DNA of 64,000 nt from NCBI GenBank assembly GCA_016875335.1, contig VGRO01000001.1, positions 79,955 through 143,954 on the forward strand, read 5' to 3'. Positions 4,737-41,519 of the stretch are shown in pieces (the first letter of the stretch is position 1; the number at the start of each line of letters is the position of its first letter). The position numbers were made by a program, and so were the translations under genes. The notes under the pieces were generated by a model. That model did not search any database and was not told where the DNA came from. It saw only the letters and a program-made list of their open reading frames with translations. This stretch comes from Deltaproteobacteria bacterium. GTDB lineage: Bacteria; Myxococcota_A; UBA9042.

Positions 4737-4768
4737 GAATCATGCGTCTGAACAATGGGGGGGATCGA
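4737..4768 (-). repeat. Intergenic repeat copy A (core CCCCCCCATTGTTCAG on minus strand)
   Basis: gaatcatgcgtctgaacaatgggggggatcg; shares the core with 16 other copies. Confidence 0.9.
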
Positions 4769-11752: not shown

Positions 11753-13051
11753 GTGGCGTTCCTTTTCAAGCTGCCGGATATCGGCGAGGGCGTGGTCGAG
11801 GGCGAGTTGACCAAGTGGCTGGTCGAGGACGGACAGGCCGTCGCCGAGGACACGCCGCTTTTCGAGGTGCTGACCGACAAAGTTTCGGCGGTCATTCCGA
11901 GCCCGCGCAAGGGCACAGTGGTGGTTCGGCATTTCAAGGAGGGCGACATGGTGCCGGTGGGCGCCGTGGTCGTGACCATCGACGAAGCCGCGGGTGCCAC
12001 TCATCCCGCGCCGGAACCGGAATCGGCTCAAAAACCGCCCAAAACGGCCGCTCAGGCGTCCACGGTCACAGCGACCCTGGTCCACCTGCCGCCTGTCGCG
12101 CAGCGCGCCCCCGACGAACGGGTGCGGGCCGCTCCGGCGACGCGCAAGCTGGCGCGCGAGATGGGCGTGGAACTGTTCGAGGTGCCCGGCACCGGCGAAG
12201 AGGGGCGCGTCACCCGCGACGACGTGATGGCCTGGGCGCAACGCGTGGCGCAAGGAACCAGCAAGCCGGCCGCAGCACCTGAACCTCCGCCATCCCCAGC
12301 GCAGCAACCGCCGACGTCGGCCAGGCCGGCACCCAAGCCCATCGAGCGCGGCCCGGACGAGTCCCGAGAACGCCTCAAGGGTCTGCGCAAGCGCATCCAC
12401 GCCAAGATGCGCGAGAGCAAGGACATCGCCGCCCATTTCACGTACGTGGACGAGGTCGATTTCACGGCAATCAACGAGATGCGGACGGCCCTGGAGCGCT
12501 TTGGCGTCAGGGCCACGTTCCTGCCGTTCGTCCTCAAGGCGGTGTGTCTGGCGCTCAAGAAGCCGGAATTTCGCTACCTGAACGCGAGCGTGGACGACGC
12601 CGCTGGCGAAATCGTGGTCAAGCACCGCTGCCACATCGGCGTCGCCGCGGCGACGGACGCGGGCCTGGTGGTGCCGGTGGTCAAGGACGCCGACCAGTTG
12701 TCGATGCGGCAGTTGGTGGACGAGGTCAAGCGCCTTGGCGAAGGTGCGCGCGACGGCAAGCTGGCGGCCGAGGACATGAGCGGGTCGACGTTCACGATCA
12801 CCAGCCTGGGCAAGCTGGGCGGCATGTTTGCCACGCCCATCATCAACTACCCGGAGGCCGCGATCCTCGGGCTGCACAAGGTCGAGAAGCGGCCGGTGGT
12901 GGTGGGGGACCAGATCGTCATCCGCGAGCGCATGTACATGTCGTGCAGCTTTGACCACCGGCTGATCGACGGCCACGTCGGCGCGGCCTTCGTGCAGGCG
13001 GTCAAGGGGTACCTGGAAGAGCCGGTGTCGATGATGGTCGAGTTGGTGTAG
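11753..13051 (+). CDS. Dihydrolipoamide acyltransferase (E2) of a 2-oxoacid dehydrogenase complex
   Basis: Lipoyl domain ...FEVLTDKVSAVIPSPRKG..., E3-binding domain, catalytic C-terminus ...CSFDHRLIDGHVGAAF. Confidence 0.92.
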   Translation: MAFLFKLPDIGEGVVEGELTKWLVEDGQAVAEDTPLFEVLTDKVSAVIPSPRKGTVVVRHFKEGDMVPVGAVVVTIDEAAGATHPAPEPESAQKPPKTAAQASTVTATLVHLPPVAQRAPDERVRAAPATRKLAREMGVELFEVPGTGEEGRVTRDDVMAWAQRVAQGTSKPAAAPEPPPSPAQQPPTSARPAPKPIERGPDESRERLKGLRKRIHAKMRESKDIAAHFTYVDEVDFTAINEMRTALERFGVRATFLPFVLKAVCLALKKPEFRYLNASVDDAAGEIVVKHRCHIGVAAATDAGLVVPVVKDADQLSMRQLVDEVKRLGEGARDGKLAAEDMSGSTFTITSLGKLGGMFATPIINYPEAAILGLHKVEKRPVVVGDQIVIRERMYMSCSFDHRLIDGHVGAAFVQAVKGYLEEPVSMMVELV

Positions 13052-13169
13052 GCGCTCGATCGCGCTGCCAGTCCAAGGGGCAGAGCGACCTTCGCCGCGA
13101 CGCCGTTGCGATCCACATCAGGTCGGAAACCACAGCATTGTCAACGCCCTGAACAAAGCCCCCCTCCGT

Positions 13170-13952
13170 TCACACCCCGTCCCCCCGGCATTTCCAGACC
13201 GCCGCGCCGGAACCAGCCACGCCCAGCAGCAGCAGCGCTGCAAGTGCGCCCGGAATCTCGCCGGCCATGTTCGCCGCGGTCAACTCCTTGCCAGGCAGGG
13301 TCTGCACCAGCGTGCCGATGTACACCGACGGCGACAGCTTGGCAGCCAGGTCCACCCACTGCGCCATCAGCAGGTCCACGGCGACCAAGTAGCCGAGCCC
13401 AAGGCCCGTCGCCGCTTTGAACAGCGCGCCCATGCCCAGGAAGATTCCCGCGTAGGCAAAGCCGCCAAACAGCGCCGCCAGCACCTGCCGCGTCATGTAG
13501 CCGACGTCGGGCGAATACAGCGTGCCCAGCATCAGCCCGGCCGTGCCCGCCATCATGGCGGCGCCCAGCGCACAGACCAGGATCGCCACCGCAAGCAGCC
13601 GGCCGATCGGCAATGCGACCGGCGCGCGCGGCTTGAGCAGCAAGAGCGGCAGCGCCCCTGCCTCGGCGTCGTCGCGAATGGCCGACACGCCCAGCCCCAG
13701 CGCACACAACGCCAGCGCCCGCATCGCAAAGTGCTGGTAGAACCGTCCGATGGTGCTGCTGTCGTCGATCGACAGCCGCGCAAGTCCTGCGGCCGCCGCG
13801 ACCGGCAGGGCCACCAGGAGCAAGTACGGCCACATGCGCCGCAGGGTCAAGGTGTTGCGCAGGTGCTGCGTCGCATGCAGGGCAATCGCCGCGCCCATCG
13901 ACAAGCGGCCGGGCCACGACACGTCGGTCAAGCTGAAGGTCGCCTGCGTCAT
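13170..13952 (-). CDS. ABC-2 type transporter permease
   Basis: Multiple TM segments, adjacent to ABC ATPase; MTQATFSLTDVSWPG... Confidence 0.7.
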   Translation of the reverse strand: MTQATFSLTDVSWPGRLSMGAAIALHATQHLRNTLTLRRMWPYLLLVALPVAAAAGLARLSIDDSSTIGRFYQHFAMRALALCALGLGVSAIRDDAEAGALPLLLLKPRAPVALPIGRLLAVAILVCALGAAMMAGTAGLMLGTLYSPDVGYMTRQVLAALFGGFAYAGIFLGMGALFKAATGLGLGYLVAVDLLMAQWVDLAAKLSPSVYIGTLVQTLPGKELTAANMAGEIPGALAALLLLGVAGSGAAVWKCRGDGV

Positions 13953-13954
13953 GG

Positions 13955-14914
13955 TCACCGCACCTCTGCGGCCAGTGCCGCGAAAAGACTGACGAGATCG
14001 TCGCCCTGGGTGTCCACACGTTCCACTGCCACGCCGCTGGCGAGCACCGCGTGCGGCAATGCCCGACAAAGAGCTTCCGCGTCGGCGGCCTGCACGGTCA
14101 GCACATCGTTGCCAGCCGAGTCGACGCGCACCAGCGTCACCGGGGCCTTCGCCAGCAATTCGCGGGCCAGTGAGCGGGCGTCGGAGCATGAAATCTTGAG
14201 CAGCGTCGCTTGGTTGTGTAGCAGGTCCCGGATGTCTTCCTGGTGGCCCGCGGCGACCAAGCGACCCTTGAACAGCAGCACCAGGTGGCTGGCCAGCGCC
14301 TCGACTTCCTCAAGGATGTGGCTCGACACCACCACGCACGCGCCCGCGGACGCGGCTTCGTGCATCAGCGCCGCCACCTCGCGACGCCACACGGGGTCCA
14401 GGGCATTGAGCGGCTCGTCCAGCAGCAAAAGGGTCGCGGGCAATGCGAACGCCTGGGCAATCTTGACCCGTTGGCGCTGACCGCGCGACAGCGTCTCCAA
14501 CTTGGCGTCTTTCTTGGCGTCCAGGCCCAGGCGGTCGAGCATCTGACCGGCCCGCTGCCAAGCGTAGCTTGCGGGGCAACCGCTCAGCCGCAGCATGCCG
14601 GTCAGCCACTGCATCACAGTCAGTCGCCGCGGCATCTGGTCGTTGTCGGTACACAGGTTGACGCGGTTGTCCAAACCCGGGTCGCGACGGCCCAACTCGC
14701 CCAGCCAGCGCACCTGCCCGGAGCTTGGTGCAACCAGGCCGGCAGCGAGGTTGAGCCAGGTGGTCTTGCCGGCGCCGTTCGGCCCCAGCAGGCCCACCAC
14801 CCCCGGCTGCAACTCGACCGAACAGTCGAGCAGTGCGACACGCGACCCAAAGGCCCGGGTCACGCGCTGGAATGCCACCACCGGCCGGGCCGTGGGGTGT
14901 GCGAAGGTGGCCAT
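13955..14914 (-). CDS. ABC transporter ATP-binding protein
   Basis: GLLGPNGAGKTTWLNLAAG, ETLSRGQRQRVKIAQAFALPATLLLLDEPLNALDP. Confidence 0.93.
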   Translation of the reverse strand: MATFAHPTARPVVAFQRVTRAFGSRVALLDCSVELQPGVVGLLGPNGAGKTTWLNLAAGLVAPSSGQVRWLGELGRRDPGLDNRVNLCTDNDQMPRRLTVMQWLTGMLRLSGCPASYAWQRAGQMLDRLGLDAKKDAKLETLSRGQRQRVKIAQAFALPATLLLLDEPLNALDPVWRREVAALMHEAASAGACVVVSSHILEEVEALASHLVLLFKGRLVAAGHQEDIRDLLHNQATLLKISCSDARSLARELLAKAPVTLVRVDSAGNDVLTVQAADAEALCRALPHAVLASGVAVERVDTQGDDLVSLFAALAAEVR

Positions 14915-15880
14915 CTACGATCGCCCCTTGCCCAGCGGCGGATTGGCCAAGAAGCGCTGCAGGGACCACCAAGCACCAGCGGTCAGGGCGATCCACAGCA
15001 CCAAGCCGCCAGCTGCCGCTACCGCATGGGTGTTCGGCGGCCGCGCCGGGTCGATCGGAAACGACAGCAGCACCCACGCCGCCGACATCGCATGGTGCAA
15101 GTCGAGCGCCCGCGCCGCCGACTCGCGGCCCCACGCGGCCTGCGCCACCCACGACGCGGCGGTGCTGCCCAAGATGACGCCGCCAAATGCCAGCGGCGCC
15201 GAACTCGGGTTTCGCACGATGGCGCCCGCCGCCAAAGCGACCAGCGACGCCATCGCTACGGCCGCCGCGGCCGACAGCGCCTGGCCCACCAGCAGGGCCA
15301 GCCACCACAGTGCGCCTGCCGCGCCCGGCAACGGGCACCCACCGGGCTGCAGCCCGTATTGCGACAGCAGCACGACGATGAGCAGCACCGCGGGAGCCAA
15401 GATCTGGCCCAGGCCACTCAGACACGCCGCGCCCCACCGCGCGAATAGGTAGTGGGGCCGCAACACCGGCCGCGAAAAGTACAACAACAACGCACCTTCG
15501 TGGGCGTCGCGGGCGATCTGCGGTGCCACCTGGGTCGCAAGGCCGACCAGCAGCAGCCCAGTGGTGATGAGACCATGATAGTGCAGCAGCGTCGCGACCC
15601 ACTTGGCCTGATCAGCCACCGGCACGGCCAGGCCTTGGACATCGAACTTGGCGCGCACGATCGCGACGGCGGCCATCACAAGCGCCGACAGCACAAAAAA
15701 CACGGCGAAAATCTTGGACTTGGTGGTGCGCCACTGGTCGCGCGCGAAGACAAGCAACAGCATCCGCAGACGCTGGCTCTCGGCCACCCGCGCACCGGCG
15801 TGGCGCGCGTAACCGCCCGGCTCGAACACCACGGCGCCTTTTTGGCCCGGTGGCCGCGTGTTCAAGGTCGCCCCGTTCAC
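14915..15880 (-). CDS. ABC-2 type transporter permease
   Basis: GTG start overlapping upstream stop; hydrophobic, adjacent to ATPases. Confidence 0.7.
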   Translation of the reverse strand: MNGATLNTRPPGQKGAVVFEPGGYARHAGARVAESQRLRMLLLVFARDQWRTTKSKIFAVFFVLSALVMAAVAIVRAKFDVQGLAVPVADQAKWVATLLHYHGLITTGLLLVGLATQVAPQIARDAHEGALLLYFSRPVLRPHYLFARWGAACLSGLGQILAPAVLLIVVLLSQYGLQPGGCPLPGAAGALWWLALLVGQALSAAAAVAMASLVALAAGAIVRNPSSAPLAFGGVILGSTAASWVAQAAWGRESAARALDLHHAMSAAWVLLSFPIDPARPPNTHAVAAAGGLVLWIALTAGAWWSLQRFLANPPLGKGRS

Positions 15881-16872
15881 ATGGCCCCCTGTCGCTGTGC
15901 ACCAGCTTGGCGGCGCAACGGATCGTCGATGCGCAGGTGGCGCACGAACGCCGAACCCATGTCCTCTTCGAGCGGACCGAAGGCCCGCACGCCTACGCCC
16001 GCGCCGACACACAGGCTCCACAGCATCGCAGCGGCGTCCGCCGGCGCCGAAACCACGACGCTGCGGCCCTCGACCTCGCACTCCAATCCCGCTGCGCGCA
16101 CGGCGCTGGCCAAGTTTTGGGCGTCGCCGACCACGCGGATCTTCCACCGCGATCCAGTGCCCGACTTGAACCCCGCGACCGTGCCGTTGTAGCCGACCTG
16201 GCCGCGAGACAGCAGCACGACGTGGTCACAGACCGCCTCGACATCGGGCAACACGTGCGTGCTCAACACCACGGCGACCCCGGCGGCGGCGATCTCGGCG
16301 ACCAAGTCCAGCATCTGCTGGCGACCCTCGGGGTCGAGCCCGGCGGTCGGTTCGTCGAGGATCAACAGCTCGGGGCCGTGCGCCATCGCCATCGCCAGTC
16401 GCAGCCGTTGGCGCATGCCCAGCGAATACGACGCGCCGAGCCGATAGCGCGCGTCGGCCAAGCCGCACAGATCGAGGGCCTGGTGGGCCCGGCTGCGCGC
16501 GTCCGTCGCGGACAGGCCGCTGAGCTGCGCGGCGTGCACCACCTGTTCGATGCCGTTGAGCCCCGGAAAAAGGCTATCGTCTTCAGGCATGTAGCCCACG
16601 CGCGCCAGCACATCGAGGGTGTGGTCGGGCATGGCGCGACCGAGCACGTCCACCGTGCCGCTGTCCGGGATTTCCAGGCCGAGCAGCAAGCGGAAAAGCG
16701 TGGACTTGCCCGCGCCATTGGGCCCGAGCAGACCGACCGCGCCCTTGGGCAGGTCTAGTTCAACGTCGCGCAGCGCGATCAACTCGTCGTAGGTCTTGGT
16801 CACGCCGCGCAACGCTGCCACCGGTTCGGTGGCGGGCGGCGGTGGGGCAGCATCGGCGGGCGGCGTCGGCAC
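15877..16872 (-). CDS. ABC transporter ATP-binding protein
   Basis: GLLGPNGAGKSTLFRLLLG, YSLGMRQRLRLAMAMAHGPELLILDEPTAGLDPEGRQ. Confidence 0.93.
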   Translation of the reverse strand: MPTPPADAAPPPPATEPVAALRGVTKTYDELIALRDVELDLPKGAVGLLGPNGAGKSTLFRLLLGLEIPDSGTVDVLGRAMPDHTLDVLARVGYMPEDDSLFPGLNGIEQVVHAAQLSGLSATDARSRAHQALDLCGLADARYRLGASYSLGMRQRLRLAMAMAHGPELLILDEPTAGLDPEGRQQMLDLVAEIAAAGVAVVLSTHVLPDVEAVCDHVVLLSRGQVGYNGTVAGFKSGTGSRWKIRVVGDAQNLASAVRAAGLECEVEGRSVVVSAPADAAAMLWSLCVGAGVGVRAFGPLEEDMGSAFVRHLRIDDPLRRQAGAQRQGAM

Positions 16873-16950
16873 GCGGCGATGGTGCCACTGGCCGGCGCAA
16901 AGCGGAAGGCCGGATTGCCGGCGCGCCGCGCCCCTCGGTATCCTGGGCCC

Positions 16951-17724
16951 ATGAAGCCCCTCGCCCTGTCTGCCCTTGTCCTTGTCGTCGCCTGTGCAGA
17001 GGCGCCTGTGCCTGCGGCTGTCGATGCGGGCGCCGATGTGTTCGTCCCGCCTGGCTTCGGTCGATCTTGCGAACCAGCAACCGGCTGCGCCAAGGGTTTG
17101 CTCTGCCTGAAAAGCGACTATTCGGTCAAGCCGTTCTGCACGGCCCACTGCCCGAGCGCCCAGGTCAAGGACTATTGCAAGCAGTCGGAGTTGGCCGGCG
17201 CCGCCGCCTTGTGCGTGCAGATGCCCAAGGAGTTCCAGGGACCCAAGGATCCGCTGTGCCTGCCCTTGTGCGGCAATCTCGCCGAGTGCCTCACCGCCAA
17301 CCCCGACTGGGAGGTCTGCGCCAAGCCGAGCTACAAGAACCAGCTTCTTTTCAACGATTTGCCGACCAAGGCCTGCCAGAGTCCGAGCGCGCACGGCCAA
17401 ATCCAGGTCGACCCGGTGCTGTGCGACTGGCAGGACAAGGCCGCCGCGCTGCCGCAGTTCGCCGAAGCCAAGCAGGCGTGCCTCGCCGTGTGCAAGAGCA
17501 TCTTGAAATCATGCCAACTGTGGCCCAAGGGCAAGTCCGAAGACTGCTGCGGCTGGGCGTGCTTCCAATGGCTGACTCCGGGCGGCAAGCTCGACAACAA
17601 ACGGCTGTCGGGCACGATCAAATGCCTCAACACCGCGTATGCGGCCTTCTTGGGCACACCCCAAGTCTGCACCGGCTGGAAAGAACAGTGCGGCGAACTG
17701 CCTGCCTGGGTGCAGGCGCCGTAG
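16951..17724 (+). CDS. Cys-rich putative lipoprotein
   Basis: MKPLALSALVLVVACAEAPVPAAVDAG... lipobox-like VVAC, many Cys pairs. Confidence 0.75.
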   Translation: MKPLALSALVLVVACAEAPVPAAVDAGADVFVPPGFGRSCEPATGCAKGLLCLKSDYSVKPFCTAHCPSAQVKDYCKQSELAGAAALCVQMPKEFQGPKDPLCLPLCGNLAECLTANPDWEVCAKPSYKNQLLFNDLPTKACQSPSAHGQIQVDPVLCDWQDKAAALPQFAEAKQACLAVCKSILKSCQLWPKGKSEDCCGWACFQWLTPGGKLDNKRLSGTIKCLNTAYAAFLGTPQVCTGWKEQCGELPAWVQAP

Positions 17725-25415: not shown

Positions 25416-25443
25416 AAATCATGGATCTGAACAATGGGGGGGG
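25416..25443 (-). repeat. Intergenic repeat copy C5
   Basis: aaatcatggatctgaacaatgggggggg. Confidence 0.9.
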
Positions 25444-25991
25444 AGTGGCCGCCAGCGCTGCAGTACGAACCACGACCCCGTGGGCCAGTGGCGCCCAGCT
25501 ACCTCGACCAGGGAGACTCCGAGCAGTAGCGTCGGATCGTTCGGCCGCAAAGCTACCAGTGGGTCGCGCACCAGGCGGGTCGGGTCGACCGCGGCGTTGC
25601 GCGGGTGGACGTAGTCGAGCATCACGCCAGGACCGCAGGGTCGGCGCAGGCGCGCGCGGGTGCGCTGCCATTCGTCGAGCTGCGTGACGTGGAAGTGGCC
25701 AAACTCCCATGGCTTGCCAGCCCGGCTGCGTAGCACGAGTTGGGCGTCGGCTTCTAGCAAGCGATCGTCGCCTTGCACGATGCGCACGTTCCAGCCGACC
25801 ACGCGGTCGCCATCGGCTGCAAATGCCTTGACAAATACCGACCACGTCAACCGTTCGACCCAGCGCGGCAGGCCGAGCGAAATGCCCTGGTACTGCCATC
25901 CTGCGAGATCGCCCGGCGCCAGCGCATGACCGGCGGCCAGTGCATCCGCCAGTTGCGGTTTGGACCAACTGCGAAACTCGGCCAGATTCAT
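25419..25991 (-). CDS. Hypothetical protein whose last codons (PPHCSDP-stop) lie in repeat C5
   Basis: 190 aa MNLAEFRSWSKPQLADALAAGHALAPGDLAGWQYQG...LQRWRPLPPHCSDP*. Confidence 0.75.
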   Translation of the reverse strand: MNLAEFRSWSKPQLADALAAGHALAPGDLAGWQYQGISLGLPRWVERLTWSVFVKAFAADGDRVVGWNVRIVQGDDRLLEADAQLVLRSRAGKPWEFGHFHVTQLDEWQRTRARLRRPCGPGVMLDYVHPRNAAVDPTRLVRDPLVALRPNDPTLLLGVSLVEVAGRHWPTGSWFVLQRWRPLPPHCSDP

Positions 25992-26012
25992 GGTTCTCCG
26001 CGCGCTCGTTCG

Positions 26013-27413
26013 CTACTTGAAGCACCCCGCCAAGAACGTCCACTTGTCGAGCGCCAGGGCCGCCTGAGCGCGCTGGTCGGCGCCCCATCCCGGCGCGCGG
26101 TCCGCGAACACAGCATAGGCGGGCGTGCCGGCAAAGCACCAAAAAAGCAGCCCCGGATCGGTCATCTTGCCTGCGATGTCCAGGCCCGTCCTGCACTCGG
26201 CGAGACGCCCCGCAGCACGCTGTCGCAACACCCACGCAGCCTCGACGTGGCGCTTGAGTCCGGGGTAGCCGCCCGCGGTCTCTCTTTCGAAACAGCCTGT
26301 TGCCCCAGGTGACCCATGTGCCTTGAGCCAGGCCTTGCGGTCGAACGTCACCTGCTCGTGGGCGTGACTGACCTCTTCGTCCAAGTAGTCCAGACCCGTC
26401 GCCGGAGAATGTTGCCACGCACACAGCAGCGCAGCGTTGGCCTCGCAGTTCGGCAGATGCTGGCCACTGTAGCGGGGATTGCACTCGTTGCTCGCCGGCC
26501 ACAACACCAGCCGCACACCCCGGCCCGGCTGGTCTGCCGTCCAGCGCCGATACAGAAGCCCCATCTTCTCCTTGTAGTCGTGGCGGCAGTGCGGGCACGA
26601 CACGTCGAGCATCTCGACCATCGTCGGCTGGCCGGGCTTGGCCGCCGCGAGCACCAGCGACCCCTCGTCGGCGGGCAGATCCGAGTTCGGGCCGACAAGC
26701 GGCGCCATGCAGCTCTTGGCGGGGCACCTCAACATGACCTCGCCGCGGGCGACGATGAGCGGCTGGTTGTTCACGCGCTTCTTGTGCAGGCGCTCGGCTT
26801 GGGTGGTGAAGTAGAAGTCGGTGCTGACGCTGGCGATGAACCAGAACCCAACGCCCAGCGCCATGGTCGCGCCAACCTGGGCCTTCCACGCGCTGCCCTG
26901 CTGGCGCGCCAAGTCGCGCAGCCGTTCGCCGAAGTGGTTCCACGCCCAGCCCACCACCACACAGAACGCAGCGTTGGCGGCATGCATGGCCAAGCACAGC
27001 GTGCATTTTGTGCCGATCTGCACAAGGCCGATGTACAAGAAGGCCAACGTGCCCAGCAAGTCGATGATTGCCCACGCAACCAGCAGCGCGAACGCAAATG
27101 CTGCCGCCTGGAACGCGCCGGTGGTCATGGTGACCGCAAACGCGATGGCCGTGCCCAGCGCCACCGTCATCGTCGCCATGCCCCAGATGGCGACCGGCAC
27201 CCCCAGGATCTTGCCTTGGTCGCTGGTCAGCGCGCCTTTGCACGAGTCGCCCTGGCCCTTGGCGAGCGCGGCACATGAACTTGGCACACCGGTGTCCAGC
27301 CCGATCGCCAGTTCGTGGTGGCGCTGCGACGCCGACAAGCCCAGTCCGGCGCCCATGCCGGCGATGAGCACCAACGCGAAGACCAGCAGGTAGTCCAGCA
27401 ACCGACCGGTCAC
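26013..27413 (-). CDS. VKOR-family membrane oxidoreductase fused to thioredoxin/DsbA-like domain
   Basis: Multi-TM N-terminus with 'GTKCTLCLAMHAANA', C-terminal 'MVEMLDVSCPHCRHDYKEKMG' (CPHC); GTG start overlaps the upstream stop. Confidence 0.78.
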   Translation of the reverse strand: MTGRLLDYLLVFALVLIAGMGAGLGLSASQRHHELAIGLDTGVPSSCAALAKGQGDSCKGALTSDQGKILGVPVAIWGMATMTVALGTAIAFAVTMTTGAFQAAAFAFALLVAWAIIDLLGTLAFLYIGLVQIGTKCTLCLAMHAANAAFCVVVGWAWNHFGERLRDLARQQGSAWKAQVGATMALGVGFWFIASVSTDFYFTTQAERLHKKRVNNQPLIVARGEVMLRCPAKSCMAPLVGPNSDLPADEGSLVLAAAKPGQPTMVEMLDVSCPHCRHDYKEKMGLLYRRWTADQPGRGVRLVLWPASNECNPRYSGQHLPNCEANAALLCAWQHSPATGLDYLDEEVSHAHEQVTFDRKAWLKAHGSPGATGCFERETAGGYPGLKRHVEAAWVLRQRAAGRLAECRTGLDIAGKMTDPGLLFWCFAGTPAYAVFADRAPGWGADQRAQAALALDKWTFLAGCFK

Positions 27414-28540
27414 GGCGTCTCCAGGCAGGTCAGAAGTTGCTTGACGCGGTTCGGGCATTCTTCGCGGGCGACCAGAAAGCCCAGCGCTTGCTGGCAGTTG
27501 GCGTGCGACTTTCCGTAGCGTTCGCAAATTTGCCGGGCGACATTGGGCAACTGGCGGCTGCACGCGGTCAACGGCTGGCGGTCGAGCATGGCGCGCGTCA
27601 GTTTGCTGTCTTCGGCCGGCAGCGAAACCGCGGCAGCCAACACCAGCCCGGCGGCGGCGGCCACGGCGAACCCCAAATCCATCGCCGATCGGCCCCGCGG
27701 CTGCGGCAACGCTTGACCCAGGCCGAGCAGCGACAGCAGTTCGGCGATGTGCGCCGGGCGACTGCGCGGATCGCTGTCGAGCGCGCGCCGCAAGGGTTCG
27801 GCCACTGTGGGCCAGCGCGCCACCAACCCCCATGCCGCCTGGGCGCGATCATCGCGGATCTGCGGCGGCGGTATGCCGCGGGCGATGCGGGCCGCCGCGG
27901 GATCCTCGTCGTTCCACGGCGTGATGCCGGTCAACGTGAAATACGCCAGCAGCGCCAACCGGAACACGTCGGTGCGCGCGTCGACCAGGCCTCCGCCCAG
28001 TTGCTCGGCCGCCATCCAGCGGGCGCGCGGCCCACCCACCACAGGCGCGGATCGGGCGAAATCCGTGACTTTGACGGTCAGACGGCCGTCGGGCGACAGG
28101 TCGACCCACACGCTCTCGGCCGTGAGCGTGGCATGCGCCACACCCGCAAGGTGCGCGGCCTGAATCGCGTCGCCGACGGTGCGAATGACCGTTTGGGTCA
28201 CCAGGTCCCAGCCGCGCGCCGCGAGGTAGCCGTGGCGTTGCTGGCCGATGCGCACGATCTCGTCCCAGCGGCGGCCCGACGGACGCTCAAAGACCAGGTG
28301 CAGGGCGCCGTCCGGCCCCGACCAGAGCCCCAAGGGTCGCACCACCGCCGGGTGCGCCACCAACCGAGTCGCCTGCAACTCGGTCTGCAACCACAGCGCC
28401 GCCGACTGCGGGTCGATGGGCACCGGGTAGCTCTTGGCCAGCGCCTGCAGTCCGTCACAGCGCGCGGGCGTCCACACCTGCGGGCCGCTGCAGGGAAGGG
28501 GCGCGCCACTGAGCACCACCCGGCCGTTTTCCAGCATCAT
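27410..28540 (-). CDS. Ser/Thr protein kinase-like protein (likely pseudokinase) with TM segment
   Basis: 'AAHLAGVAHATLTAESVWVD...VKVTDFARSAP...ARWMAAEQLGGGLVDARTDVFRLALLAYFTLTGITPW' aligns with kinase motifs but HRD and DFG are altered. Confidence 0.72.
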   Translation of the reverse strand: MMLENGRVVLSGAPLPCSGPQVWTPARCDGLQALAKSYPVPIDPQSAALWLQTELQATRLVAHPAVVRPLGLWSGPDGALHLVFERPSGRRWDEIVRIGQQRHGYLAARGWDLVTQTVIRTVGDAIQAAHLAGVAHATLTAESVWVDLSPDGRLTVKVTDFARSAPVVGGPRARWMAAEQLGGGLVDARTDVFRLALLAYFTLTGITPWNDEDPAAARIARGIPPPQIRDDRAQAAWGLVARWPTVAEPLRRALDSDPRSRPAHIAELLSLLGLGQALPQPRGRSAMDLGFAVAAAAGLVLAAAVSLPAEDSKLTRAMLDRQPLTACSRQLPNVARQICERYGKSHANCQQALGFLVAREECPNRVKQLLTCLETP

Positions 28541-31377
28541 GCCGCCCGGCCCCCTCCGAGCAGGCCTTGCAGCACCCGAATGGCTTTGTGCCGGTCGAGG
28601 TTCTGGTTGTGCGGTTGGTGGGTGCAGGTCACGCTGCGGCAGCATTTGGCGCAACTGGCCTGGCAGTCGCAACTGCCCAGGATTTCCAGCGCTGCATGCA
28701 AGATAGCGTGCAGGTCGCGCTCGTCGTCGATGTCGTCCAGGCATCCCAAGCCGTCGGGGTGGCGGTCGAAGAACACGATGCCCGGCTTGCCGTCGAAGTC
28801 CAACTCGTAGCTCACACCCAGAAAGTCCGAGGCGCCCAGGAAGAACCAGTCCAGGCTGTCGCGCAAGACGTGGCTCAGCGTGTGCAGCACGGTTTCGTCG
28901 GCGCCAGGCAAGCGCAGCACCCACGCCCGCGTGGCGAATCCAGCGACCTCATGGGGTTGCGGCAACATGTTCTCGTAGCGGCGCTGCAGCGAGTCGGCGT
29001 CGCCCGCGGCGCTCGCCGCATTCTGGTCGCGGTCGTAGCCGAAGTTGTGGACGCCGCGATGGGTCAGGTGCAACTGCACACCGACACGCACCGTTTCCAA
29101 GCTGTCGCGGCCGCCAAACCGCGGCCGCTTGATGTCGGGCAGACCGGCGCCATGGCGGGCGAAGCGGATGCTGCGCACCGGCGTCGCGGTCCGGTACGAC
29201 GGTTCTTCTTCGAGCAGACGGACCTGGCCGCGCAGCCCCGCCGCCTTGTCCAGCGCGACCTTGTAGCGCTTGCCCCCCAACGTGACCCGCGCACCCTCGA
29301 AATACTGGAAATCGAGCAGCGACCGCGCCACCGGCCAGCGCTCGCCCGTGCTCGGCGCCAGCAGCTCCGCAGGGTCGCGCACGCGGTCGCGGTCTGCCTC
29401 GACGGCGCCTTGCGCGCGGCACAGCCGCACGATCTCTGGCTTCTTCGGGTCGGCGGGGTTGGGGCGCCAGCCCTCAAAGCTCGTGAAGATCCGAGAGCCC
29501 TCGAGCGTGCCCAACACCCTGGCCGTGACTTCGCGAGAAAACACCCGCTCCAGCCGCGCCGTGTCTACGAATCCCTTGTCGAGCGCGGCGCGCAGGTGCA
29601 TCCGGGCCTCGGCCTGCAGGCCCGCAGGGGTCGCTTGGCCGGTCGGCACCGCCGACAGCACCCGCGGAAAGCGGCTGACGTCGTACCATGCCGGCCACCA
29701 GCGCTTGTGGGTGCGGTATTGCCGCAGCAGCAACTGCGACATCGGATCGTCGGCGAAAAGCAGATACTCGTGGGCAGGCTCGGGCCCTTCGGCGTAGTAG
29801 CGGCGGTGACCCAGCACCTGCCAGGCACAGCGCGGGCCGATGCGCGCCAGCAGCACCTCGGCGCTGCCCTCGGGCTGGGGATCGCCCGGCGGGGGCCACG
29901 GCGCCCACGGTTCGCCGACCAATTCGGCAAAGAGGCGCTCGTGTGGCCCTTCGACCTCGGTGACCACCCGTGCATAGCCATCGCGTACGCCGAGCAGTCC
30001 CGCAGTGGCGGTCTTCTTGTGCTGGATCCTGCCCAGTTCGACCACGAAACGCCGCACTGCGCGCGAGGCCGCCCCCTGGGGATCGTACTCGCCAGCCGTG
30101 GGTGCCACCTTGACCTGCGCGGTGGCGATGCGGTCGGCGATTTGCTGCAAGACCGCCGTGCCGAGGTTGCCCACCAGGAGTACCGCGGGCGGACTGGCGC
30201 CGCGCAAAGCGGCGAGCCGATAAACCAAGAACCGGGCGCGCGCCACCGCCGGTCCGTACAACTCCTCGACGTCGTCCAGGACCACCAGCTTGCAGCGCTC
30301 GATCAGCGGATGGGCGCCCGGATCGGCAGCGTCGTCGAGAAACGCCTGCACGTCGTCGAGCGACGCCACCCAGATATCCGCCGGTCGCGGCGGCAGGCCG
30401 TCGTCGATCGCCACCGCGGCGCCGGCCGCGATCTTCTCCGTCAACGCCCGCAGTTGCCGCACGGTGGCCCCGACGCTTTCGCGCTTGGGGGTGACCACTA
30501 CACAACTGGCGCCGGTCGTCAGGGCCAAGTCGATCGCCCGCACAAGCGCCGCCGTGGTGCGCCCGGTGCCGACCGGACCCGCAAGCGCCAGCGCCGGCAG
30601 CGCAGCCCACTCGTCGATCACCCGCGCCTGGAACGGGTAGAGGTCGAGGCCAAACCGCGGTTCGCCCTTCTTGCCGGCCTTGCTGCTGCGGTCGATGGCC
30701 GGCAGCGTCTCGACCGCCGCCGGGGCCCCCAACCACTGGTGCAGAGCATCGATGCGCTGGGCGAACGGCAGACGGTCCGGTGGCGCCTCGACGTTGCGCG
30801 GCGGCCGCGGTTCCGGCAGCGGTCGGACCGGATGCGTGGAACCGAAAAGCACGCCCAATAGCGCCGCATAGCCGAACGCCCACAGCGTGTACTGCGGCAC
30901 GCCCTTTGCGGGCACGACTGCAAGGTCCATGCCCAAGATCGCCAAGGTCGCAAGGCCGAGGCCAAGCACCGCGAACGTGCGCAGCATCCAGCGCAGGCCG
31001 ACCAGCGGCGAGCCGTCGGGGGCGATGCCAAACGCCACGAAAAGCGGCGGACACGGCGGGTCGCGCGGTCCCGGCTTGTAGAGCGCGCCGAGTACGAGTC
31101 CAAACAGCGGAAACGACGCCACGAGCAGGATGAGCGCCAAGAGCAAAGCGTTGAACGTGCGCGGGAATCCAAGGATCGCATGGCCACGCACCACGCCGTG
31201 GGTCTGGAGCGCCGCGACCATCCCGCCCACAGCGAGCACCGCTGCCGCCGAACCGTACCACAGGGGGCCGTGGCCCGGGCGCAACCAATCGGGGCCGGAT
31301 CGCACGGCAAGCAGCCACGCCGTGACCAGCACCCCGACCAGCAAGAGCACGTACACCAGCAGGTCGGTGTTGCCCAT
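28537..31377 (-). CDS. Membrane-anchored P-loop/helicase-like protein with DUF1998/MZB-like Cys-rich C-terminus
   Basis: N-terminal TM helices; 'PFQARVIDEWAALPALALAGPVGTGRTTAALVRA', 'LVVLDDVEELYG'; C-terminal 'GIVFFDRHPDGLGCLDDIDD...LEILGSCDCQASCAKCCRSVTC'. Confidence 0.65.
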   Translation of the reverse strand: MGNTDLLVYVLLLVGVLVTAWLLAVRSGPDWLRPGHGPLWYGSAAAVLAVGGMVAALQTHGVVRGHAILGFPRTFNALLLALILLVASFPLFGLVLGALYKPGPRDPPCPPLFVAFGIAPDGSPLVGLRWMLRTFAVLGLGLATLAILGMDLAVVPAKGVPQYTLWAFGYAALLGVLFGSTHPVRPLPEPRPPRNVEAPPDRLPFAQRIDALHQWLGAPAAVETLPAIDRSSKAGKKGEPRFGLDLYPFQARVIDEWAALPALALAGPVGTGRTTAALVRAIDLALTTGASCVVVTPKRESVGATVRQLRALTEKIAAGAAVAIDDGLPPRPADIWVASLDDVQAFLDDAADPGAHPLIERCKLVVLDDVEELYGPAVARARFLVYRLAALRGASPPAVLLVGNLGTAVLQQIADRIATAQVKVAPTAGEYDPQGAASRAVRRFVVELGRIQHKKTATAGLLGVRDGYARVVTEVEGPHERLFAELVGEPWAPWPPPGDPQPEGSAEVLLARIGPRCAWQVLGHRRYYAEGPEPAHEYLLFADDPMSQLLLRQYRTHKRWWPAWYDVSRFPRVLSAVPTGQATPAGLQAEARMHLRAALDKGFVDTARLERVFSREVTARVLGTLEGSRIFTSFEGWRPNPADPKKPEIVRLCRAQGAVEADRDRVRDPAELLAPSTGERWPVARSLLDFQYFEGARVTLGGKRYKVALDKAAGLRGQVRLLEEEPSYRTATPVRSIRFARHGAGLPDIKRPRFGGRDSLETVRVGVQLHLTHRGVHNFGYDRDQNAASAAGDADSLQRRYENMLPQPHEVAGFATRAWVLRLPGADETVLHTLSHVLRDSLDWFFLGASDFLGVSYELDFDGKPGIVFFDRHPDGLGCLDDIDDERDLHAILHAALEILGSCDCQASCAKCCRSVTCTHQPHNQNLDRHKAIRVLQGLLGGGRAA

Positions 31378-31380
31378 GCG

Positions 31381-33339
31381 CTACGCCCCGTGCCCGGCCG
31401 GCCGGCTGATCGCCGCATAGATGTCGGCCAATCCAGGGTGGACGCGCTGGTGGCCGACCCCAGAGTCCGGCACGGCGTCTTCCAACTGCTTGGGCAGCAC
31501 CACGAAGCGCTCGGCGCCGAACTCCAGCGGCAACAGGTCTTGCAGGCGGTCGATCATCTGATCCATGGCGCGGCGGGCCGGGCCGATCGCGGCCTCGCGC
31601 AGTTCGGCGCGGTCGGAGAACGGTACCTGTTCGGCAAAAGCGCCGTACTTGCGAGCGCAGTGGGCAATGAGCGCCTCGGAGTTCATGAATTCCAGTTGCC
31701 AGCGCCAGCTTTCGGCGCGCAGCGCGGCGTCGTAGGGGTCAAACACCTCGGCCGGGTCCACGCGCGATTCGGCCCGCGCGTAGAACTCCTCGGGCAACTG
31801 GATGTCGCTGTCGAACGCGGTGTCGCCGACCAAGCGCATGCGCTCAGGCTTTCTGTGCTGCTGCTGCAAGTCCAGCAAGGTGTCATGCACCGTGCGCAGC
31901 CAGTGCAGTTCGGCCGTGGCGACTTCGACAGCAAAACGCAACATGCGGCCGTGCAAATGGTGGCCGATTTGCGCGATGTGGTCGCGGATGAGCGCGGACC
32001 AGCGGGACCGGTACGCTTGGCGGCATGCGGCTTCGGCGGCCTCCAGGCGCTGGAAGGTGGCCTCGGCGGCACGCTTGCGGATTGCGGCAACCGCCCAGCC
32101 TGCCACCAATGCCGCGACCGCCACGCCGCCACAGGCGACCATCCGCCACGCGCCGAACCCGACCAAGGCCGGCCACGCACAGGCTGCGACCACGGCAGAG
32201 AGCGCAAAAGTCCAGCCGCCAAAAAGGACGCCGCTGTCGTCGAACGTCGCCCGCGCCCGCGCCAAGGCCCGCGCCGCGTCGCGCACTTCGCCATCGTCGG
32301 GTGCCTGCAGCCGCATCGCCATGCGCGGCCCCTGATCCTGGTCGCCGAGCGGCGTCGCGCCTGCGGTGTCGCGCCAGCGTTCGAGCTGGTCGATGAGCAC
32401 CGGCAGGGCCGCGAAGCCCGCCCGCTCGAGGTTGTCGTCGCTCCAACGCCGCAACTCGGCCTGCCACTTGAGCGCCTGTTCGCGCAGGTCGCTGCCGTGG
32501 CGGCGCAGCACGTCTTCGAGCCGCGCCGGAAGTTCTTTGAGCGCCAGGTCCGCGCGGCGCTGCACGTCGGCCTCGCTCGGCAGATCGCCCTCGCCCACGA
32601 TGCGCCGAGCGATGCCCTCGCCGAGATCTGCGGCGCGGCCCTCGATGGCGGCCTCGACGTCCTGCTCGGGCGGGGCGGGCGGGTCGGCCAGGTTGGGGCG
32701 GGCCGACGAACTGCGCCCCTGCTGCAGCGTTTGCACCATGCGGTCGGCGACCTTGGCGGCCAGCCTGCGCGCCAGCACCCGCTGCACGATCGGCGCCTGG
32801 AAGCGCGCGGCCTGGGTGATGGTGACGCGCACGCCGCCATAGGTCTCGCACCACCGCGCAACGTGCTCGCGGGCCTGCGGCAGGCGCGCAATGTCCACCA
32901 GCAGGCCGAGCAGGTTGGCGGCGGCGCGCTCGCGCTCAGAAAGGGTCAGCACGCGCTGGACCAGGGTGTGCGGGACGGCGTGCACTGCATGGAGCCCCGC
33001 CGCACCGCCTTGGGCCACCTCGGCCTCTTCGGCCAGCACAATGGCGATTCGCGCCCACGGCGCGCGCACCGCGGACTCCGGCGGCGTGCGGCCGGCCAGG
33101 GCGACAAGGTCCGCCAGTTTGTCGGCCAGCAGAATCTGGACGAAACCGCCCTCGTGCTTGCGGACCGCCAGCATCGCCCGCTGGTGGGCCAGCAGCTTGT
33201 TGCCCCAGTCCGGGTCCTCCAGGCCCGCGAGCACCCACAGGGCCTGGGCGCCCTCGACGGTGCCAGCGCGGCCCGCGACCTCTTCGACCGCCGGCAGGAG
33301 CGCCGGGGCGCTGACGAGCACTTGGACGGGAACGCTCAC
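31381..33339 (-). CDS. Large hypothetical protein, alpha-helical/coiled-coil with central TM hairpin
   Basis: 653 aa from GTG; hydrophobic 'FALSAVVAACAWPALVGFGAWRMVACGGVAVAALVAGWAVA'. Confidence 0.65.
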   Translation of the reverse strand: MSVPVQVLVSAPALLPAVEEVAGRAGTVEGAQALWVLAGLEDPDWGNKLLAHQRAMLAVRKHEGGFVQILLADKLADLVALAGRTPPESAVRAPWARIAIVLAEEAEVAQGGAAGLHAVHAVPHTLVQRVLTLSERERAAANLLGLLVDIARLPQAREHVARWCETYGGVRVTITQAARFQAPIVQRVLARRLAAKVADRMVQTLQQGRSSSARPNLADPPAPPEQDVEAAIEGRAADLGEGIARRIVGEGDLPSEADVQRRADLALKELPARLEDVLRRHGSDLREQALKWQAELRRWSDDNLERAGFAALPVLIDQLERWRDTAGATPLGDQDQGPRMAMRLQAPDDGEVRDAARALARARATFDDSGVLFGGWTFALSAVVAACAWPALVGFGAWRMVACGGVAVAALVAGWAVAAIRKRAAEATFQRLEAAEAACRQAYRSRWSALIRDHIAQIGHHLHGRMLRFAVEVATAELHWLRTVHDTLLDLQQQHRKPERMRLVGDTAFDSDIQLPEEFYARAESRVDPAEVFDPYDAALRAESWRWQLEFMNSEALIAHCARKYGAFAEQVPFSDRAELREAAIGPARRAMDQMIDRLQDLLPLEFGAERFVVLPKQLEDAVPDSGVGHQRVHPGLADIYAAISRPAGHGA

Positions 33340-33524: not shown

Positions 33525-34976
33525 ATGTCCTCCGCCCCAAAATTCTGCGCCGAGTGTGGCGCGCCGCTTGCCGAAAACGCAAAGTTCTGCGCTGGTTGTG
33601 GAAAGCCGGTCGCAACGGCAACCGCCCCAGTGCCGGTGGTTGCGGATGCCGCACCCACCGCAGGCCCTGCCGCAAAGCCGGGTGCCGCCCAGCCCGTTCC
33701 GCCCGCCGACGATCACGACGACGACGGCGAACTTCCGATGCCCAAGGGCCTGGACGACATCGAGAAGCCGGGAAGGCCACTGCCGGTCGCCGCCATTTCG
33801 GTGGGCGCCGTGCTCGCCGTCGTCGTCGGCTTGGTGCTGTTCCTGACCAGCAACCCCGAGCGGCTCGCCGCCTTCCAATGTCGCGTGCTCGGCCAAGCCG
33901 ACAAGTGCGAAACCGAGGCGATGAAGCTCAAGAAACTGGAACGCCAAAAGAACGAGGAAGAACAGCAACTGATGGTCTCGGTGGTCGCCCAGTTCGACTT
34001 GCAGTTTGCGCCCAAAGAGTCGACGTGGGCGACGGTGGTGCAGAAGCGCTACGAAGAGCCTCGCGATGATTTCGTCAAGCGCGTGCGCGACAGCGGCCCC
34101 GACAACCGCAAGCTCGTCGAGACCAAGTTTGGCGAATACAAGCAGGCTGCCGCCAAGGATGGCCAGATCAAGGGCGCGATCGCGTTCGTGACCGAGTCCG
34201 ATTGGACCGCCGCGCACAGTGCTGGCGATGCCAAGCCGGCGCTCATCCCCGAGGATCCGCCGCCGCCGCCCCCGGCGCCGCCTCCACCCCCGCCGCCTGT
34301 GCCGCCGACCGGCCCCATCTCGTGGTGGCCCAAGAAGGACCAGTCGCTGACGCTGCCCATGAGCGTGCAGAACCTGCCGATGCTCGAAAAGGAGCAGGCC
34401 GATGGCAACGGCAAACGCCTGACCGCCGACGACGTCGCCAAGATCATTGCGTTGGAAGAGGCCGGCGGCGCCAAGTCCAAGGAGGGTGAGGAAGGCAAGC
34501 CCGACCCGACCAAGAACGTCAAGACGATTGCCGTCTCGACCTGGGTCTACGAGATTCGGCTGTGGGCCCCTGGGTACGAGCAGCGCAACATCGTGTTCTA
34601 CGACGACCCGCTGCCGCCCGACCTGAACAAGAAGAAACTCGAAGCCGACAAGTGGACGCTGCGCAAGTTCAAGCGCATGCCCGACGGAAAGCTGGTCATC
34701 GACAACGCGGGGTTCGACCTGCTGCCCTTCCCGCGCACCATCCAGACCCGTTACCTCGTGGTGCTCAAGGAGCTGCACTGTCTCAAGCTGACCAAGGAGT
34801 ACGAGGCCAAGAGCCAGCAGGGCAAGGTCGACGCCGAGCAGCTCATCTGGGACCAGAAGGCCTTTACCAAAGAAGAGCAGGAGGTTGCCAAGAAGAACGA
34901 CGGCGACCCGGCCTTCGAGGCCCTCAAGGCCGAGGCCATCAAGCAGGTCAAATGCGAGTTGGTGTTGCCGCAATAG
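33525..34976 (+). CDS. Zinc-ribbon-containing membrane protein with Pro-rich linker
   Basis: FCAECGAPLAENAKFCAGCGKPV; TM 'AAISVGAVLAVVVGLVLFL'; PPPPPAPPPPPPPVPP. Confidence 0.78.
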   Translation: MSSAPKFCAECGAPLAENAKFCAGCGKPVATATAPVPVVADAAPTAGPAAKPGAAQPVPPADDHDDDGELPMPKGLDDIEKPGRPLPVAAISVGAVLAVVVGLVLFLTSNPERLAAFQCRVLGQADKCETEAMKLKKLERQKNEEEQQLMVSVVAQFDLQFAPKESTWATVVQKRYEEPRDDFVKRVRDSGPDNRKLVETKFGEYKQAAAKDGQIKGAIAFVTESDWTAAHSAGDAKPALIPEDPPPPPPAPPPPPPPVPPTGPISWWPKKDQSLTLPMSVQNLPMLEKEQADGNGKRLTADDVAKIIALEEAGGAKSKEGEEGKPDPTKNVKTIAVSTWVYEIRLWAPGYEQRNIVFYDDPLPPDLNKKKLEADKWTLRKFKRMPDGKLVIDNAGFDLLPFPRTIQTRYLVVLKELHCLKLTKEYEAKSQQGKVDAEQLIWDQKAFTKEEQEVAKKNDGDPAFEALKAEAIKQVKCELVLPQ

Positions 34977-38786: not shown

Positions 38787-40451
38787 TCAGCCATAGCGCC
38801 ACAGAGCTGCGATTTCCTTGGGATTCGGGTCGCCCTGGAACACCGCGCCCACCCGCCGACAACCTTCTTCCAACTCGTCGAGCAACTGTTGGCGGGCCGC
38901 GTGGTCCGCGCGCACCAGACCGCGCGCTGCATCGACATCCTCGGCGTCCGCGACCACATCGAGCACTTCACTTTCGTCGATCTCGCGCACCGCGACCGCC
39001 ATGACGCGGTGCCCGGCTTGTCGGGCGTGGGCAAAGGTGGTCATCATCGGGCCGAGGTGCCCGGACAGACCCCGGAAATCCGAGACGACAATCAGCGCGA
39101 ACGGTCCCTTGCGTGCGGTCATGGCGCTGCGCACGCCGGCCACGATGCCCGCGACACGCTGGTCGGCCGGAAGTTGCCCGCGGTAGGGCAGGGGCAGGTC
39201 GGCGGCCCGGCAAAACCGGCGCAAGATCGCCAGGTCCGAACGAGCACTGGGTTCTGGGCCGCGCAGGACCGGGATGCGTTCGCGCAGAGGCAGCCGCGAC
39301 AGGGCCGCCATGACCACCCGCTGCCGGACGTGGGGCCCGGTCAGTGCCACGGTGTGCGGGACCCCAGTGCCGATGAGCACGGGCAGCGGTGCACGTTCGA
39401 CCGCCAGCAAGTACCTGGTGACCACTGCAAAGAGCGCGGCCTCATCGAGCGGCGCCAGGTCTTCGGCGACGGCGCGGCGGATGTCGAGCAAGGCACGGTC
39501 GGCGGACCCCAGTGCCGCAAGGCCCTCGAGCACGGGCCGGGTTTCGAGCACGCGACCGTCGACCAGGGCCAGTCCAAAGGGATCGTGGGTGCGCGCACAC
39601 GCCTCGGCAAGTGAGTGCACCAGGTCGGCTGCCTGGTCCAGTGGCCCCCTGCCAGCGACCCCGTCGCGCATGGTCGCCCCGGTCTCCAGCACCACGTACA
39701 TCGATCGTGTGCGCTCGCGCTCGAAGGACCGCGCCATCAAGCGCCCGCGTGCCGCCGAAGCCTTCCAGGCGATGTGCTTGAACGGGTCGCCGGGCACGTG
39801 CTCGCGCAACTCGCGCAGGTCGTCTCCCGTGCCAGGCACCTTGTCGGGGCGTTGGCCGTGGCCGCTGCGCGGTGACATGCGCCGGGTCTCGGCCACCGAG
39901 CGCAGATCGATGGGCAACGAGCGCGGCAACACCGCCAACTCGCACGGTGCAGGCAGGAACACGTGCGCCTGCACCAGCCCGTTGGGGTCGGTCAGCCGGC
40001 CCTGCACCCCGACCACGCGGTGAACGGCCGCGGTTTGCGGGCAGACCACCAGGCGCAACTGCGCACCGGGGCCGCGCAACATCACCGTCGCAGCGCCGTC
40101 GCCGCGAAGCACCAGGCCGGGGCTCGTCCAGACGCGGTCGATGTCGAGCCGCGCCCGCATCAACTCCAGAGGCGCATGGAACTGCAGCACCACCGGCACG
40201 TCCCGGCCAACCCGGTGGGATCGCTCGGTGCCTGGGTCGCCCCGACCGTGGCCGACGATTTCGCAGCGGGCGCTCAACTGCCACGGGGGGGCGCCGAGCC
40301 GCAGACCACGGCGCAGACGCCGCAATTCCAAGTGCAGGGTGCCCACCGCGACCGCGCCAGCGAGCGCGATGCCCGGCACGCCGAGCACCAACCCCGCGGC
40401 CAACAGCGCCAACCCGGCGCCCAGCATCACGCGACCCAGCGGCAACAGCAT
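38787..40451 (-). CDS. DUF58 domain protein
   Basis: 'GTGDDLRELREHVPGDPFKHIAWKASAARGRLMARSFERERTRSMYVVLETGATM'. Confidence 0.88.
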   Translation of the reverse strand: MLLPLGRVMLGAGLALLAAGLVLGVPGIALAGAVAVGTLHLELRRLRRGLRLGAPPWQLSARCEIVGHGRGDPGTERSHRVGRDVPVVLQFHAPLELMRARLDIDRVWTSPGLVLRGDGAATVMLRGPGAQLRLVVCPQTAAVHRVVGVQGRLTDPNGLVQAHVFLPAPCELAVLPRSLPIDLRSVAETRRMSPRSGHGQRPDKVPGTGDDLRELREHVPGDPFKHIAWKASAARGRLMARSFERERTRSMYVVLETGATMRDGVAGRGPLDQAADLVHSLAEACARTHDPFGLALVDGRVLETRPVLEGLAALGSADRALLDIRRAVAEDLAPLDEAALFAVVTRYLLAVERAPLPVLIGTGVPHTVALTGPHVRQRVVMAALSRLPLRERIPVLRGPEPSARSDLAILRRFCRAADLPLPYRGQLPADQRVAGIVAGVRSAMTARKGPFALIVVSDFRGLSGHLGPMMTTFAHARQAGHRVMAVAVREIDESEVLDVVADAEDVDAARGLVRADHAARQQLLDELEEGCRRVGAVFQGDPNPKEIAALWRYG

Positions 40452-40457
40452 GGGCGC

Positions 40458-41519
40458 CTAGCTGGACGCCGGCGAGAGGTCCAGGTCCACAGGCATCTGG
40501 ACGCCCGCGATGGGTTCGATGACCTTGGTGCGCGCCACAACGTCGCTGACGACCACTGCGGCGCTGACGCCCTCGATTGCCGCGTCGGTCGTGACCATGA
40601 TGCGGTGCTCGAGCGCCGGACCCACTAGCGCCCGGACATCGTCCGGCGTGGCGAACTCGCGCCCGCTCAGCAGCGCCCACGCTTTGGCAAGCCGCAAAAG
40701 CGCGAGGCTGGCGCGCGGGCTCGCGCCCAAGGCCACCCGCGGATGCTGGCGCGTGGCTTGCACGAGGCGGACGATGTAGCCCATCAGCCGCTCTTCGACG
40801 TGCACCGCGTCCACGACCGAGGCGAATTCGAGCAGTTCGTCGACATCGGCAACGGCGCGCAACTGCGCCACTGGTCGGTCGTAGGTCTGCAGCATCCGCA
40901 CCTCATCGGCCGCTGTCGGGTAGTCCAGGCGGATCCGCACCAGAAAGCGGTCGATTTGCGCCTCGGGCAGCAGGTACACCCCCTCCTGTTCGACCGGATT
41001 CTGCGTCGCCAACACCAGGAACGGTTCGGGCAGGGCCTGGGTGTGGCCCTCAATGGTCACCTGACGCTCCTGCATGGCTTCGAGCAGCGCGCTCTGCGTT
41101 TTCGCTGGCGCACGGTTGATTTCGTCTGCGAGCACCAGTTGCGCGAAGAGGGGCCCGCGCCGCAGCTCAAACTCGTGGATTTTCTGGTTGAACACGAACG
41201 TACCGGTGATGTCTGCGGGCAGCAGGTCTGGCGTGAACTGGATACGCCTGAACTGGCACCCGAGCGACGTGGCGATGGCCTTGGCGAGCGTGGTCTTGGC
41301 GAGGCCCGGCACGCCTTCGAGCAGCACATGGCCGCGGGCCAGCAGCGACGCGAGCAGGACGGTCACGACCTGGGGATTGCCGATGTACACACGCCCCACT
41401 TCGGCCAGCACCCGATCGCGCAACGCGCCGGCGCGAGCGAGGCGGGCGTGATCAAGCAGGGCCGTCGCGATCCCTGCGCTCGGCGTGCTGCCGGCGCTGT
41501 CAGCGGGTGGGGTCATCAT
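40458..41519 (-). CDS. MoxR-family AAA+ ATPase
   Basis: HVLLEGVPGLAKTTLAKAIATSLGCQFRRIQFTPDLLPADITGTFVFNQ...LADEINRAPAKTQSALLEAMQERQVTIEG. Confidence 0.95.
   Translation of the reverse strand: MMTPPADSAGSTPSAGIATALLDHARLARAGALRDRVLAEVGRVYIGNPQVVTVLLASLLARGHVLLEGVPGLAKTTLAKAIATSLGCQFRRIQFTPDLLPADITGTFVFNQKIHEFELRRGPLFAQLVLADEINRAPAKTQSALLEAMQERQVTIEGHTQALPEPFLVLATQNPVEQEGVYLLPEAQIDRFLVRIRLDYPTAADEVRMLQTYDRPVAQLRAVADVDELLEFASVVDAVHVEERLMGYIVRLVQATRQHPRVALGASPRASLALLRLAKAWALLSGREFATPDDVRALVGPALEHRIMVTTDAAIEGVSAAVVVSDVVARTKVIEPIAGVQMPVDLDLSPASS

Follow-up and report, generated by a model that had tools for sequence, protein, structure and literature searches.

A conserved membrane operon as the probable envelope half of a split Tubulin_2 (FtsZl1) system

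The four-gene operon A-B-C-D, located in the analysed stretch of 64,000 nucleotides (hereafter, the window), very probably encodes envelope components, placed in the inner membrane, of a Tubulin_2 (FtsZl1) cytoskeletal system whose other half has been relocated. This high confidence concerns membership in the system only, and it derives from gene linkage, synteny, homology, topology prediction, and the loss of catalytic motifs. The window belongs to a 6.66-Mb MAG (G000), and the relatives with named records are MAGs too, mostly labelled as Myxococcales, one as Deltaproteobacteria, and one as Proteobacteria. The operon had originally been predicted to be an undescribed multi-protein system: its nature as a conserved membrane operon held, but not its standing as something unrelated and undescribed, since it is half of the FtsZl1 system described in 2010 (Makarova & Koonin, PMC2875224). 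The tie to the tubulin was missed from the window because the f0-Tubulin_2 pair lies on another contig. The partners of FtsZl1 given in the main text of that paper are proteins with vWA domains, kinases, and a GTPase, besides OmpA-like proteins and lineage-specific membrane proteins left unnamed; membrane remodelling was proposed for it from context alone.

All four genes lie on the reverse strand: A at 31381..33339 (GTG start, 652 aa), B at 28537..31377 (946 aa), C at 27410..28540 (376 aa), and D at 26013..27413 (GTG start, 466 aa), and each start agrees with the homologs. A and B are separated by a 3-bp gap, and B/C and C/D overlap by 4 bp each, confirming the predicted ORF coordinates and spacing. 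The gene-neighbourhood comparison found A-B-C-D contiguous and syntenic in G001, G002, G003, and G005, with partial recovery in G004, while the outer flanks are unlike those of the window in G001, G002, and G005. Since synteny is kept in genus-mates while the outer flanks differ, the arrangement is beyond chance, and the prediction of a single conserved multi-protein membrane operon is borne out. A short A/B gap or overlap is also present in the four syntenic genomes and in G019.

The genes diverged nearly in parallel. The Tubulin_2 protein is the most conserved (97, 92, 82, 80, and 40% identity to G000 across the relatives) and A the least (87, 72, 58, 51, and 22%), and the identity rank order is nearly equal for the tubulin, A, B, C, and D. 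B is full-length in G001, G002, G003, and G005, at 61–89% identity, and partial in G004.

Gene E (25419..25991, reverse strand, 190 aa), which follows D at its 3' side in the window, had been listed with the operon and did not keep its place there. Its homologs, found in 19 of the 36 relatives, lie at unlinked places, and none is next to D beyond the closest relative, G003, so E was dropped from the module as a separate family. No Pfam family matched it. E and DnaB are retained beside the locus only in G003, and the neighbours of the locus are of housekeeping type (DnaB, a class II tRNA-synthetase-type protein, and a porin-like protein). Divergent from A, on the forward strand at 33525-34976, is a gene (P0006) whose product has an N-terminal zinc ribbon, a single hydrophobic segment, and a stretch rich in proline; among the relatives, it lies next to A only in G003. 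At window positions 38787-41519, DUF58 and MoxR-type AAA genes stand in tandem, a common pair without a link to the operon. The window also holds 16 copies of CTGAACAATGGGG (with at most one mismatch) against 0.04 expected, often in clusters of two to four, at positions 4748, 4894, 25083, 25126, 25300, 25427, 36993, 37094, 37206, 38642, 38730, 44733, 51377, 51502, 51637, and 60629.

The gene directly upstream of A in G001, G002, G019, and G284 encodes a Tubulin_2 protein (PF13809) of ~1,100 aa, and in these unsplit loci it is preceded by a membrane protein, f0, homologous to the vWA partner. G000 instead has the f0-Tubulin_2 pair away from A-D, on contig C112 (12258-16985; tubulin at 12258-15560, f0 at 15597-16985). 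The two halves are split in G000, G003, and G005, i.e., three of the six genus genomes. Since the more distant G019 and G284 have joined loci, the simplest history would be one relocation event in an ancestor shared by G000, G003, and G005. In G004, whose assembly is 81% complete, pieces of A-D are present and no Tubulin_2 was found. The f0 protein of G284 opens with a vWA-like DDSGSM motif that the Pfam vWA model does not score, and its C-terminal part is common to the f0 proteins of the genus, which are without the vWA part. CGDGxC-repeat membrane proteins, with no Pfam OmpA match, are found near some loci, and none of the linked genes is annotated as a P-loop GTPase with a TxKD motif.

The linkage was then surveyed in 379 Myxococcota genomes, searching the phylum with an alignment of B. 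Tubulin_2 is present in 28 of the 30 genomes with B or a B-like protein vs 55 of the 349 without (Fisher p 1.7e-18, a value that is only descriptive because phylogenetic dependence makes the genomes non-independent). Besides full-length homologs, many proteins of ~900–2,100 aa match the nucleotide-binding part of B, and 17 of the 23 distant B-like hits (E <= 1e-6) lie within ~12 kb of Tubulin_2 on the same contig. In the loci examined, the gene order is vWA/f0, Tubulin_2, a protein that we call X, and the B-like gene. Furthermore, hhalign aligned B with the B-like proteins of other Tubulin_2 operons with a probability of 99.6 (E 1e-24, 657 columns), and several of these exceed the Pfam cut-off for MZB, with L101 doing so for both DEAD and MZB. 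Distant B-like proteins L076, L077, and L038 keep the Walker A Lys.

The converse sample, 20 Tubulin_2 loci taken regardless of B, contains a B-like protein in four cases, three of them with MZB; seven loci with enough sequence (L103, L106, L108, L109, L112, L120, and L121) have no detectable B, and roughly eight more are truncated where the contig ends. B is thus a frequent, not a universal, partner of Tubulin_2. One could argue that the conserved operon is functionally independent of the tubulin and that their adjacency in relatives is hitch-hiking, in agreement with the unlinked halves in half of the genus genomes. However, the linkage recurs across families among homologs only ~20–40% identical, and the co-occurrence with Tubulin_2 holds even when the genes are unlinked, which makes such independence highly improbable.

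Two further arrangements were observed in the survey. G003 carries a second, paralogous Tubulin_2 operon (L038, contig C114, 2701-19998), encoding a 1,523-aa X-type protein and a 1,967-aa B-type protein with a weak transglutaminase match. Outside Myxococcota, a plasmid of Azospirillum ramasamyi (L124:11414-16892) has Tubulin_2 and, behind it in the order of X and B, two large hypothetical proteins with TM segments and with no detectable homology to A/X or B.

A consists of an alpha/beta N-terminus (residues ~1-180) and a long coiled coil that includes a TM hairpin (residues 378-420). Its structure model (pLDDT 71.8) shows the alpha/beta part followed by long helices. A has no Pfam family and no convincing PDB relative. 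Similarities to pore toxins or dynamins reached TM-scores of at most 0.31 and were taken as shared long helices only. The profile comparison of A with X (hhalign probability 94, E 1.3e-7, 448 columns) indicates that A is a reduced homolog of X, the coiled-coil TM protein usually encoded behind Tubulin_2 elsewhere in Myxococcota. The N-terminus of X carries a GLGxFG-type motif, and X usually has two TM segments where these were counted. The possibility that A or X is a tubulin paralog was also considered and rejected: hhalign of A vs Tubulin_2 was negative, the best PDB matches of A included nothing FtsZ-like, and X gave a probability of only 8.

B is related to the DUF1998/MZB helicase MrfA, but it is anchored in the membrane and its helicase motifs are degenerate. 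It comprises four predicted N-terminal TM segments, a DEAD-like P-loop domain (PF00270 at 248-373, 28.7 bits vs a cut-off of 26; motifs GPVGTGRT and LDDVE), a degenerate second half, and a C-terminal MZB zinc domain (PF09369 at 834-913, 40.4 bits vs a cut-off of 24.2; CDCQASCAKCCRSVTC), in line with the predicted DUF1998/MZB protein on TM helices. Although the AlphaFold model is of low overall quality (pLDDT 53.6), just four PDB chains match it below E 0.001, each of them MrfA, over 785–853 alignment columns, which agrees with the independent MZB sequence match. In the Walker A motif, Arg replaces Lys in 7/7 homologs (GPxGxGR(T/S)), the DExH box reads DDVE, EDVE, or similar, and motif VI (QxxGRxxR) is absent from the 7/7 homologs checked. 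On the basis of these three changes, B is best described as a helicase-derived and probably non-unwinding membrane protein.

The same domain composition could point to an anti-phage or DNA-processing role, in which a membrane-anchored DUF1998 helicase of the MrfA or DISARM DrmB type would act on DNA at the envelope, with the kinase as sensor. B does have DEAD and MZB domains, its poor model best matches DNA-bound MrfA, and PADLOC weakly matched the C-terminus of B to DruE and C itself to the PD-T4-6 and PglW kinases. These hits are partial or generic, however, and PADLOC found neither DrmB nor any other defence protein at full length; no partner methylase or nuclease is present, and the Walker A replacement and the lack of motif VI are invariant. 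Moreover, the genes are conserved genus-wide with near-parallel divergence rather than patchily present, the neighbours are of housekeeping type, and the partner gene is Tubulin_2. Coherently with the original prediction, which already held that membrane anchoring does not fit defence, we consider a DNA-directed role highly unlikely.

C carries a degenerate kinase domain (PF00069, 36.4 bits) in which HRD has become HAT, the G-loop is absent, and DFG has become DFA, followed by one TM segment (289-307) and a short tail with five Cys. Across the genus, HRD is replaced by HAT or HAN and DFG in most cases by DFA, DFS, or DYT, and G003 retains DFG, not HRD. The homolog in G284 is instead intact-like (HND, DFD, and a Gly-rich loop; Pfam kinase 114.6 bits), and the five-Cys tail is common to the genus and G284. 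By its motifs, and as had been suspected, C is a pseudokinase; its tail is Cys-rich, and the HRD Asp is lost genus-wide. Thus, a kinase appears to have decayed to a pseudokinase within a single operon lineage.

D matches VKOR in Pfam (47.8 bits), with cysteines C47, C58, and C137xxC140, and continues into a Cys-rich region with C273PHC276 that no Pfam model matches; all five sequences of the genus retain the loop cysteines, CxxC, and CPHC. As foreseen, D is a putative VKOR-DsbA fusion, whose thioredoxin part was assigned from CPHC and from a weak match in the PDB. A second C + D pair lies at L097:7339-12224 (contig C82 of G000), with equivalents in L098 and L099; it adjoins a CGDGxC-repeat membrane protein and was found only in the split-locus genomes of the genus (G000, G003, and G005).

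The presence of a VKOR-DsbA fusion, and of the second C-D pair beside the CGDGxC-repeat protein in those three genomes, could also suggest an ATPase for protein secretion or envelope assembly, in which B would be the motor and D would introduce disulfides into exported Cys-rich proteins, the tubulin link being secondary. B even matches the C-terminal end of TIGR03817 ("helicase/secretion neighborhood"), but with a score of 28.7 vs a cut-off of 874. In addition, the copy in G284 has no D next to it, and the gene that follows C in G019 was rejected as a D homolog, its similarity being weak and its CxxC missing, and yet tubulin-A-B-C is kept; no outer-membrane channel or substrate gene is linked. 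We therefore regard a secretion role as unlikely.

Within the Tubulin_2 system, the tubulin-like GTPase would assemble, possibly as a polymer, at the inner membrane, on its cytoplasmic side. A, with its coiled coil and TM hairpin, and B, with its TM bundle, helicase-derived nucleotide-binding body, and zinc domain, would tether it there, and A/X and B could couple it to the vWA-derived receptor, which would carry a Cys-rich periplasmic domain and a cytoplasmic tail, through direct interaction and nucleotide-driven conformational change. C may act as a membrane pseudokinase scaffold, descended from an active kinase, and D could introduce disulfides into the Cys-rich domains that C and the receptor have in the periplasm. 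The division of labour among A-D is accordingly a proposal. More tentatively, the helicase-derived, membrane-embedded B may have been recruited as a membrane coupler of a tubulin-like cytoskeleton, its MrfA-type body acting on protein or membrane rather than DNA, its companions being the reduced coiled-coil protein, a scaffolding pseudokinase, and a disulfide-forming enzyme of its own. The final output could be a local shaping or remodelling of the envelope; this is the most likely output and also the weakest step, and we hold it as doubtful.

Tubulin_2 proteins are widespread, divergent relatives of tubulin, and their conserved membrane partners A/X and B can now be named. The domain composition of these partners is unexpected next to a cytoskeletal protein, and B illustrates how a helicase fold sheds its helicase motifs in a membrane setting. 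Our literature search returned no paper joining tubulin-like and DUF1998 proteins, and no tested function for FtsZl1/Tubulin_2 proteins. The word "helicase" is absent from the main text of PMC2875224, where the helicase-like architecture of B in the FtsZl1 context is thus unmentioned; X or B may be listed, without helicase annotation, in its supplementary family list.

Compared with known systems, B shares a DUF1998-class C-terminus with DISARM DrmB and differs by its TM anchor; no other gene of the DISARM set (DrmA, DrmB, DrmC, and methylase) was found at the locus. D resembles VKOR-thioredoxin fusion oxidases in the loop Cys pair and CxxC of its VKOR part and in the CPHC thioredoxin-type motif, but it stands in a tubulin-system operon and has a Cys-rich C-terminal region without a Pfam match. 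MrfA (YprA; PDB 6znp, 6znq, and 6zns) and B have in common a DEAD-like domain and a C-terminal MZB with a Cys cluster, whereas B has an N-terminal TM bundle, Arg for Lys in Walker A, DDVE for DExH, and no motif VI, and its genomic context is Tubulin_2, that of MrfA being DNA repair. The closest likeness is to the FtsZl1 system: in relatives, Tubulin_2, a vWA-derived membrane protein, a Ser/Thr kinase, and lineage-specific membrane proteins share one operon. Tubulin_2 is adjacent to the operon in relatives and on another contig in G000, and the kinase is represented by C, with a kinase fold in all genomes and the catalytic residues kept in G284. The system described here differs in being distributed over two loci, in a genus receptor that has lost the vWA part, and in a kinase that has become a pseudokinase, and it adds a membrane-anchored MrfA-like protein and a VKOR-DsbA fusion.
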